From positions 62,001-126,000 of the forward strand of contig CANGJB010000002.1 in the NCBI GenBank assembly GCA_947453945.1: DNA of 64,000 nucleotides, in the 5' to 3' direction. Positions 7,626-11,060 of the stretch are shown one piece after another (positions within the stretch are counted from its first letter, which is position 1; each line of letters opens with the position of its first letter). Under the pieces are notes generated by a model. It was given only the letters and a program-made list of their open reading frames with translations, did no database searches and had not been told where the DNA came from. A program made the translations under genes and the position numbers. The stretch is from Sphingomonadaceae bacterium (lineage in GTDB: Bacteria; Pseudomonadota; Alphaproteobacteria; Sphingomonadales; Sphingomonadaceae).

Positions 7626-9106
7626 CCGACCGACCCCTCAAGCGAAATCCCCAGCAGCTTCTGCGCCTCGACGGCAAACTCCATCGGCAATTGCTGCAGC
7701 ACTTCGCGCGCAAAGCCGTTCACGATCAAAGCGATGGCGTCTTCCTGCGCCAGCCCGCGCTGCATCGCATAGAACAGCTGATCGTCCGAAATCTTGCTCG
7801 TCGTCGCCTCGTGCTCGATGGTCGCGCTCGGATTGCGCACTTCGATATAGGGCACCGTATGCGCGCCGCAGTCCGCGCCCAGCAGCAAGCTGTCGCACTG
7901 GGTGAAGTTGCGCACGCCCTCCGCCTGCGGGGCCACGCGCACGAGGCCGCGGTAGGTGTTGTTCGAATGCCCGGCGCTGATCCCCTTGCTGACGATGGTC
8001 GAACGGGTGTTCTTGCCGTTGTGGATCATCTTGGTGCCGGTATCGGCCTGCTGGTGGTTGTTGGTCACCGCCACCGAATAGAACTCGCCGACCGAGCCTT
8101 CGCCGTTGAGCACGCAGCTGGGATACTTCCACGTCACCGCAGACCCGGTTTCCACCTGCGTCCACGAAACCTTGCTCCGCGCGCCCTGGCACAGGGCGCG
8201 CTTGGTCACGAAGTTGTAGATCCCGCCCTTGCCCTCGGCATCGCCGGGATACCAATTCTGCACCGTGGAATACTTGATCTCGGCATCGTCGAGCGCGACG
8301 AGTTCGACCACGGCGGCGTGAAGCTGGTTCTCGTCGCGCTGCGGGGCGGTGCAGCCCTCAAGGTACGAGACATAGGCCCCCTTGTCGGCCACGATCAGCG
8401 TGCGTTCGAACTGGCCGGTATTCTCCGCATTGATTCGGAAATAGGTCGAGAGCTCCATCGGGCAGCGCACGCCCTCCGGGATGTAGACAAAGGTGCCGTC
8501 CGAAAAGACCGCGCAATTCAGCGCTGAAAAGTAGTTGTCGTGCATCGGCACGACCTTCCCCAGCCACTTGCGCACCATATCCGGGTATTCGCGAATCGCT
8601 TCGCTGATCGAGCGGAAGATGACGCCCGCCGCTTCCAGCTCCTTGCGGAACGTCGTCGCCACCGAAACGCTGTCGAACACCGCATCGACCGCGACCTTGC
8701 GCGCGCCTTCAACGCCGGCGAGCACTTTCTGCTCCTCCAGCGGAATGCCGAGCTTCTCGTAGATCCGCAGGATTTCGGGATCGACTTCGTCCAGGCTGCC
8801 AAGCTTGGGCTTGGCCTTGGGCGCCGCCCAGTAATAAGCTGCCTGATAATCGATCGGCGGGATGGAAAGCTTGGCCCAGTCGGGCGTCTCCATGGTCAGC
8901 CAGTGGCGATAGGCCTTGAGCCGCCACTCCAGCATCCACTCCGGCTCGTCCTTCTTGGCCGAGATATAGCGCACCGTGTCTTCGGACAGACCCTTGGGGC
9001 CATATTCCTGCTCGATATCGGAAGACCAGCCGTGCTCGTAATCCGCAGCGCGGGCCGCCGCCTCTCGCGCGGCGAGGTCCTTGATCTCCACTTCGCCGTC
9101 ACTCAT
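7622..9106 (-). CDS. sufB: SufB Fe-S scaffold protein
   Basis: [11 protein letters not shown]... start at 9106 preferred over ORF-track start 9265; [42 protein letters not shown] motifs. Confidence 0.97.
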
Positions 9107-9552
9107 GCCGTCATCTCCGGTGTCGCAACCGGCGCCGGGCGCGAAAACTGCGTCAGCGGCACACCTGCCAGCGCCCCGCGCAGCGCGGCGTCGACCATCG
9201 GCCAATGCGGACGCACGGTGCAATCGGCTTCCAGCGTGCAATCGTGGCGGCCATGCAGGCTGCATGGCGCCATAGCGATCGGGCCTTCCACCGCCTCGAC
9301 AATATCTGCCAGCGAGATCGCCGCCGCCGGCCGCGCCAGCTTGAGCCCGCCGCCCAGCCCGCGCACCGATTTGAGCAGCCCGGCAGCCGAAAGCTTGCTC
9401 ACCAGCTTCTGCACCGTGGGCACCGGCAGACCGGTCTCGTCAGCCAGCTGCTGCGCCGAAACCCGCGCCTCGCCCGCGCCGTGGCGCCCGCAATGGCGCG
9501 CGGCGGCGGTCATCGTCACCACGGCATAGTCGGCCATGCTTGAAAGTCGCAT
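9103..9552 (-). CDS. Rrf2-family transcriptional regulator of suf operon
   Basis: [22 protein letters not shown]...[27 protein letters not shown]...C-x7-C-x5-C cysteines near C-terminus; overlaps sufB start; ORF-track start shortened to 9552. Confidence 0.9.
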
Positions 9553-9574
9553 CGCGGCACTTTCCGAAAAAAGG

Positions 9575-9595
9575 AGTCCGAAGCAAAATCGGACT
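9575..9595. promoter_or_regulatory. Inverted repeat, candidate Rrf2/suf operator
   Basis: AGTCCGA-AGCAAAA-TCGGACT, perfect 7-bp arms, 23 bp upstream of the Rrf2 start codon. Confidence 0.65.
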
Positions 9596-9746
9596 GATCT
9601 GTTCCGGTTACCTAGGCGCGCCCGTGCGCGAGTGCAAGGCGCCGCGTGCACGCGGCCTTGAAGGCAAAAAGCTTAAGAGCAACGGGGCAACTTCGCCGGG
9701 CGCCCGCATCCGCCGGGTGCCCAACAACCAGCATGGTTCAGCGAAC

Positions 9747-9780
9747 AAAAAAAAGGCGGCCGTGCCAGGGCACAGCCGCC
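9747..9780 (-). terminator. Intrinsic terminator (minus strand)
   Basis: Minus strand reads GGCGGCTGTGCCCTGGCACGGCCGCC followed by TTTTTTTT. Confidence 0.85.
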
Positions 9781-9900
9781 ATTTAGTCGAGAACTCGCAT
9801 ACATTGCTGCAACGAGCTCTTCGGGTCGCAAGAGTGTGGTACGTTACGATTCGGCCTTTGAATTGTACGGATTCGACAAAATCGGTGGCGCCTGTGCAAC
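9747..9900 (-). ncRNA. Candidate small RNA (approximate limits)
   Basis: Strong minus-strand terminator with no convincing CDS upstream of it; two further stem-loops (CTCTT..AAGAG; GAGCTCG..CGAGTTC) and a CtrA-type box upstream. Confidence 0.4.
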
Positions 9901-9919
9901 AGACGCACGAATTCAATGC

Positions 9920-9935
9920 TTAACTGGGAGTTAAC
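9920..9935. promoter_or_regulatory. CtrA-type binding site
   Basis: TTAA-CTGGGAG-TTAAC, exact match to TTAA-N7-TTAAC; a ctrA gene is present at 29999..30700. Confidence 0.6.
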
Positions 9936-10028
9936 CGACAAATTGGTTACAATTGCCACTTGGCCTGCTTCGCGTGGGCGGCAATAGAACGCTCAACCCG
10001 TGACCGGGCCTGAGGAAAATTCCCAAGC

Positions 10029-11060
10029 ATGCTCTATTCCATTTGCCGTCCCTTGCTGTTTCGCCTTCCCGCCGAGTCTGCCCACCGTCTGACCATCGCC
10101 GCTCTGGCCGCCCTGCCGCGTGCCGGCGGCGCTGCGCCCCAACCGCTGCTGTGCCAGCGAGTCGCGGGCCTGGTGTTCCCCAATCCGGTTGGCATTGCCG
10201 CCGGGTTCGACAAGAACGGCGAAGTGCCCGATGCGCTGCTCGGCCTGGGCTTTGGCTTTGTCGAGGCGGGCACTGTCACCCCGCGCCCGCAGGAGGGCAA
10301 TCCGAAGCCGCGCCTCTTCCGGCTGGTTGAAGACAACGCGGTAATCAACCGCATGGGCTTCAACAACGCGGGGGCGGCAGTCGTCGCGGCCCGGCTCGCC
10401 GCGCGGCAGAACCGGCCCGGTGTCGTCGGCGCCAATATCGGGGCCAACAAGGATTCGGCAGATCGCATTGCCGATTACGCGACGATGACCCGAATCATGG
10501 CACCGCTTGCCAGCTACCTCACGGTCAATATCAGTTCGCCCAACACCCCGGGCCTGCGCGCGCTGCAGGATCCCGCCGCGCTCGCCGATCTGCTCGATGC
10601 GGTGATCGAGGCGCGCGGACAGCTTCCCACGCGCCTGTTCCTCAAGCTCGCGCCCGATCTCACCGCCACCGATATCGATGCGATCTGCAAGATCGCGCTC
10701 GACAAGCGGCTTGATGCGCTGATCATCACCAACACCACAATCAGCCGCCCGCCATTGCGCTCAGCGCTCGCCAGCGAGGCCGGCGGGCTTTCGGGCGAGC
10801 CGCTGCGCAGCCTCGCCTTGCAAGTCCTGCGGGATTTCCGCTCGGCCACGGGCGGCGCGATTCCCCTGATCGGCGTGGGCGGCATGGCCAGCGTCGATGA
10901 TGCCTGGGCCCGCATCCGCGCCGGGGCCAGCCTGATCCAGATCTACAGCGCGCTGGTCTATGAAGGGCCGGGTCTGGTGCGGCGAATCGTCAACGGCCTG
11001 GCAGAACGCGTGCGCGCCGAAGGCATGAGCAGCATTGCCGAGGCGGTCGGCAGCGAATAA
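10029..11060 (+). CDS. pyrD: Quinone-dependent dihydroorotate dehydrogenase
   Basis: 343 aa; NPVGIAAGFDKNGE, GFVEAGTVTPRPQEGNPKPRLFRL, TVNISSPNTPGLRALQ, IITNTTISR. Confidence 0.96.
   Translation: MLYSICRPLLFRLPAESAHRLTIAALAALPRAGGAAPQPLLCQRVAGLVFPNPVGIAAGFDKNGEVPDALLGLGFGFVEAGTVTPRPQEGNPKPRLFRLVEDNAVINRMGFNNAGAAVVAARLAARQNRPGVVGANIGANKDSADRIADYATMTRIMAPLASYLTVNISSPNTPGLRALQDPAALADLLDAVIEARGQLPTRLFLKLAPDLTATDIDAICKIALDKRLDALIITNTTISRPPLRSALASEAGGLSGEPLRSLALQVLRDFRSATGGAIPLIGVGGMASVDDAWARIRAGASLIQIYSALVYEGPGLVRRIVNGLAERVRAEGMSSIAEAVGSE

Follow-up and report, generated by a model that had tools for sequence, protein, structure and literature searches.

Several families of bacterial small RNAs (sRNAs) offer points of comparison for the gene described here. 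AbcR/alpha-r15, LhrC and Qrr are families of Hfq-dependent sRNAs whose several copies have a seed in common. The suhB/MmgR family (RF00519) consists of alphaproteobacterial intergenic sRNAs, about 80 nt long, in which an upstream hairpin is followed by a linker rich in pyrimidines, with ACUU at its end, and then by a GC-rich terminator and its U-tail. In Caulobacter, CcnA is encoded at the replication origin, is tied to CtrA, and pairs through a C-rich exposed stretch with GGGG in the 5′ UTRs of its targets (PMC8959179).

The sRNA gene reported here lies in a 64,000-nt stretch of Sphingomonadaceae DNA, called the window. The RNA is laid out like suhB/MmgR and occurs in the same genomes, but its core sequence, hairpin and locus are different and separate suhB genes are present. 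With CcnA, compared by description only (PMC8959179), it shares the C-rich exposed stretch of an alphaproteobacterial noncoding RNA, whereas the replication-origin locus and the tie to CtrA are CcnA's, and no match to the new sRNA turned up in the sampled alphaproteobacteria outside its own family. As with AbcR/alpha-r15, LhrC and Qrr, some genomes have several copies of it, alike in the core and different outside it; we claim no sequence relation to these families, and the window's genome has a single copy. Searches of the open-access literature by sequence and for sRNAs of sphingomonads and of Zymomonas returned no description of it. We conclude that the RNA represents a genuine new family, absent from Rfam, within a kind of sRNA already known. 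The original prediction was of a CtrA-controlled structured small RNA between suf and pyrD; its structural half stands and its CtrA half fails. Sphingomonads are important pollutant degraders and plant associates, and a widespread single-locus sRNA with an invariant core provides a defined entry point to their RNA regulation.

A conserved RNA gene between rrf2 and pyrD

The gene is flanked downstream by an rrf2-type regulator gene on the same, minus strand (9103..9552; Pfam Rrf2, E 3.5e-28) and upstream by the divergent pyrD (10029..11060, plus strand), which was recognized as an ORF and by synteny and named from its own sequence, without a family search. The boundaries of the RNA follow from conserved motifs: the predicted transcript of about 108 nt (9748..9855, minus strand) starts at about 9855, as judged from the position of the −10 element, and ends in a T-run that is present in 87/88 loci. 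The strong minus-strand intrinsic terminator of the original prediction was recovered as GGCGGCTGTGCCCTGGCACGGCCGCC-T8 (9747..9780), with a hairpin of 11 pairs at 9780–9755, and is the strongest of 4 matches in 2 kb (shuffle mean 1.8). The region folds far better than its own shuffles, with a z of −3.6 for 9747–9905 and of −4.55 for 9748–9855.

The terminator had been described as having no convincing CDS behind it, and this was borne out. Neither long ORF (9608..9916 and 9540..9923) has a Pfam match, no reading frame is open across relatives, and the variable columns are spread 23/23/20 over the codon positions in the ORF frame, without periodicity. The tblastn similarity merely mirrors DNA conservation, and we rejected the coding explanation; ORF 9608..9916 in particular, which had been set against the RNA as a potential conserved protein, gave no sign of being one by Pfam, frames or codon positions. 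The Rfam search suggested at the outset yielded no match at the curated cut-offs in the window or in 20 other members, the best sub-threshold match being suhB (18.7 bits vs a cut-off of 41 bits).

A DNA search matched 14 of 61 related genomes, every one in the same genus, and aligning these matches revealed two features, the invariant core TGCGACCCGAAGRGCTC and, upstream, a conserved element with TACAAT at its end. A covariance model built from 13 sequences (R1) matched 185/196 genomes of the genus, which is Novosphingobium by the named matches. A second model built from 94 sequences (R2) aligns to 9860–9742 of the minus strand with 89.9 bits (E 6e-24) and, of 299 genomes from the order, matched 172, which with two exceptions fall within one GTDB family, Sphingomonadaceae (including Erythrobacteraceae); the two matches outside are weak (E 1e-4 and 9e-4). 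In a class-wide sample of 289 genomes R2 matched the 5 that belong to Sphingomonadaceae and 0/284 alphaproteobacteria from outside the family, with filters that are stricter in large searches and may conceal weak homologues elsewhere. By these models the sRNA family does not extend beyond Sphingomonadaceae as GTDB defines it.

Scanning named genomes for the pattern yielded 88 loci, from Novosphingobium, Qipengyuania, Croceibacterium, Alteraurantiacibacter, Altererythrobacter, Erythrobacter and other sphingomonads. Species with the sRNA include N. nitrogenifigens, N. subterraneum and N. taihuense. The sRNA is adjoined by divergent pyrD and/or downstream rrf2-sufB in 88/88 of them, by both pyrD and rrf2 in 80, and on a single side in 8, where the examined stretch may have ended. 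Deep relatives retain the core though their leader and terminator sequences are unrelated, and many of them adjoin pyrD. On this comparative evidence the predicted minus-strand transcript is probably real, and the description "structured small RNA" is well supported by synteny, covariation, a fixed promoter and the terminator in well over 150 species.

The fold and the invariant core

The center of the RNA is a hairpin, GAGCUCG...CGAGUUC (9788..9823, minus strand), closed below by CGA/UCG with a bulged A and supported by covariation over 94 sequences and by the minimum free energy fold. Standard pairs fill 92.1% of the pair cells of these 94 distinct sequences, vs 78.1% after shuffling and at most 45.6% with the partners slid by one column, in an alignment (A3) that was fitted to the model and so favors model pairs. 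Double changes occur at 21/25 pairs, and the covariation score is 0.388 vs 0.150 shuffled and at most 0.09 slid; helix 2, the terminator, is 97.7% paired and has double changes in all 7 pairs. We regard both the central hairpin and the terminator helix as firm despite the model-fitted alignment, given the outcome of the slid control and how freely the terminator changes in sequence. The covariance analysis of aligned orthologous regions, proposed as a check, thus showed strong covariation in both.

The original prediction had named two stem-loops, and one of them, GAGCTCG...CGAGTTC, is this covarying hairpin. The letters of the other, CTCTTGCGACCCGAAGAG, are present, but its pairing lacks covariation and takes bases of the supported hairpin: its stem (CTCTT/AAGAG) forms at least 4 of 5 pairs in 65 of 144 sequences, compared with a shuffled mean of 64.9. 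We therefore rejected it.

Across the family alignments a 16-nt core, UGCGACCCGAAGGGCU, is nearly invariant. The near-invariant stretch UGCGACCCGAAGRG (9817..9830, minus strand; alignments A1 and A3) has a single-stranded 5′ part, which we propose as the seed. The supported fold leaves UGCGACC mostly unpaired ahead of the hairpin; the window's own sequence may also allow some of it to pair with the leader, a pairing that is not conserved. The G-U pairs within the invariant stretch are preserved in about 90% of sequences.

Extra copies of the gene exist elsewhere in some genomes. These paralogues retain the core and the hairpin while the leader and terminator have diverged, a pattern suggesting that the core is what does the work. 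Several genomes contain 3–9 model matches, partly with the same TGTCG promoter element and without pyrD synteny.

The promoter and a likely base-pairing function

A conserved promoter, TGTCGAATCCGTACAAT (9862..9878, minus strand), combines an upstream element TGTCG with a −10 box TACAAT, as seen in a logo of 129 sequences. The original prediction had missed this promoter, whose position makes the transcript shorter, at about 9855–9748. In the 129 sequences the element reads TGTCG-N2-T-N-C-N-TACAAT and lies 31–33 nt ahead of the core; it is also present in many non-syntenic paralogues, and the exact TGTCG-N6-TACAAT occurs once in the 3.26-Mb genome. Across the family as a whole (129 promoter sequences) there is no conserved −35 box, so a bound activator, or an unusual contact around −22, is probably required. 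The spacing of its fixed part, 6 bp from the −10, together with the absence of a conserved −35, suggests that this 17-bp element is served by an activator.

Two cell-cycle regulators were considered for this promoter. A GANTC site (CcrM/GcrA type) falls within the promoter element in 57/129 sequences, many of them Novosphingobium, and at this frequency GANTC/GcrA was set aside as the conserved promoter determinant. The SciP half motif GCGAC (PMC4287350) shares bases with TGTCGC, but most Novosphingobium sequences read TGTCGA, and SciP sites are found between −60 and −90; SciP was rejected as the promoter factor. Since GcrA and SciP-family (DUF1153) proteins are encoded in the genome and many Novosphingobium promoters contain GANTC, a cell-cycle input to the sRNA is possible.

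We consider it likely that the gene encodes a stand-alone base-pairing regulatory RNA, about 108 nt long, and that this RNA represents here a Sphingomonadaceae-confined family with its own type of promoter. RNA polymerase would begin at the fixed promoter TGTCG-N6-TACAAT, probably with a bound activator, or else an unusual contact near −22, in place of the missing −35 box. The RNA would then present a variable 5′ leader, the single-stranded UGCGACC, the conserved hairpin, a short U/C-rich linker, and the terminator with its U-tail. This is the layout of Hfq-dependent sRNAs, which suggests that the RNA is probably Hfq-dependent and trans-acting. The UGCGACC(CGAA) stretch would pair with mRNAs and alter their translation or stability.

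A search for targets by complementary words produced a weak, inconsistent signal and was set aside. The 10-mer TCGGGTCGCA, complementary to the core, was not enriched in four genomes (4 sites vs 24 control in the window's genome), and thus no general target class was found in these four. The 14-mer CCTTTCGGGTCGCA, able to pair over 14 nt of the core with a single G-U, occurred 47 times vs 18 for the reversed control in 196 genus genomes, among the matches listed. The window's genome lacks it, and in the order a 13-nt version shows no enrichment; we treat the enrichment as a lead, not a result. Part of the sites fall in apparent UTRs, for example, in two genomes, just 3′ of a gene that is ahpF-like by our reading of its protein sequence, and also beside terminators. 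The sites could be target sites, sponge sites or a REP-like element. In Novosphingobium the apparent UTR sites of this 14-mer are both 5′ and 3′ of genes, and many lie within a small hairpin or just ahead of a terminator.

More tentatively, and with rather low expectations, we suggest a family-wide regulon in which one or more RNAs with an invariant antisense core of 14–16 nt would be turned on when a dedicated activator acts at TGTCG (about −22) and would pair over the whole core with matching sites in mRNA UTRs, including 3′ UTRs by terminators.

The lack of target enrichment across four genomes would also fit a structural or protein-titrating RNA, in which the invariant UGCGACCCGAAGGGCUC and the hairpin bind a regulatory protein and mRNA pairing is unnecessary. 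Such a role could explain why the invariant stretch includes paired bases and keeps its G-U pairs, which is more than a plain seed needs. However, the strongest invariance is in the single-stranded GCGACC, the 3′ module resembles that of Hfq-type sRNAs, and there are mostly one or two copies per genome. We judge this explanation unlikely.

Neighboring genes, the CtrA-type box and suhB

The position of the RNA, on the same strand as rrf2 and about 170–350 nt from it in most loci, is what a 5′ leader or attenuator of the rrf2-suf operon would show, with the terminator as the switch and the RNA sensing a signal for Fe-S assembly. The RNA is not contiguous with rrf2 in all members: in many genomes a co-directional ORF of about 260–340 aa separates the two, and non-syntenic paralogues exist. 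Moreover, a conserved candidate promoter/operator block, CCTAGATAACCGGA...TCAGTCCGATT, lies directly before rrf2 in at least a subset of loci (16/88 by a strict pattern), and no antiterminator pairing was seen. Attenuation is thus a very improbable account of the locus. In five loci the co-directional ORF between the sRNA and rrf2 has about 316–338 aa and its sequence resembles a putative AraC-type regulator. Just before rrf2 in the window, CCTAGGTAACCGGAACAGATCAGTCCGATT (9575–9631, minus strand) is conserved in a subset of relatives and resembles the regulator's own promoter and operator.

The original prediction assigned the RNA to CtrA, as a CtrA-activated and cell-cycle-regulated sRNA. The exact TTAA-N7-TTAAC box on which this was based is indeed present as TTAACTGGGAGTTAAC (9920–9935, plus strand), the only one in the window and seen 0 times in 100 shuffles. 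It is retained in 8 of the 9 closest named relatives while the letters of the spacer vary, a sign of function. Over the whole family, however, the box is found in 8/88 loci (vs 7/2769 background windows), restricted to a Novosphingobium subclade, and is thus not conserved together with the near-invariant promoter of the sRNA. Its distance upstream is about 72 bases from the predicted sRNA start but about 32 from a likely pyrD start, for which the likely −10 is TACAAT at 9948–9953; a Caulobacter study of transcription start sites gives, as an example, a CtrA motif at −32 of one promoter (PMC4287350). Given the sRNA's independent promoter, the subclade-only distribution of the box and its closer fit to pyrD, the link of the sRNA to cell-cycle control is weak, and activation of the sRNA by CtrA appears highly unlikely. 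We infer that the box belongs to pyrD, and most likely it ties pyrimidine synthesis, rather than the sRNA, to the cell cycle. Beside the box, the block CCGACAAATTGGTTRCAATTG (9936–9960, plus strand) is conserved in the closest clade and resembles a pyrD promoter.

That the RNA is a distant member of the suhB/MmgR (alpha-r8) family is barely credible: suhB was its best sub-threshold match in Rfam, the 3′ ends with ACUU and a terminator are similar, and R2 scores 20 bits on one true suhB copy, but the match falls short of the cut-off, the CCUCCC stretch of suhB is unrelated to the core, and two bona fide suhB copies are found elsewhere in the same genome. Genomes of the genus contain up to seven suhB matches each.
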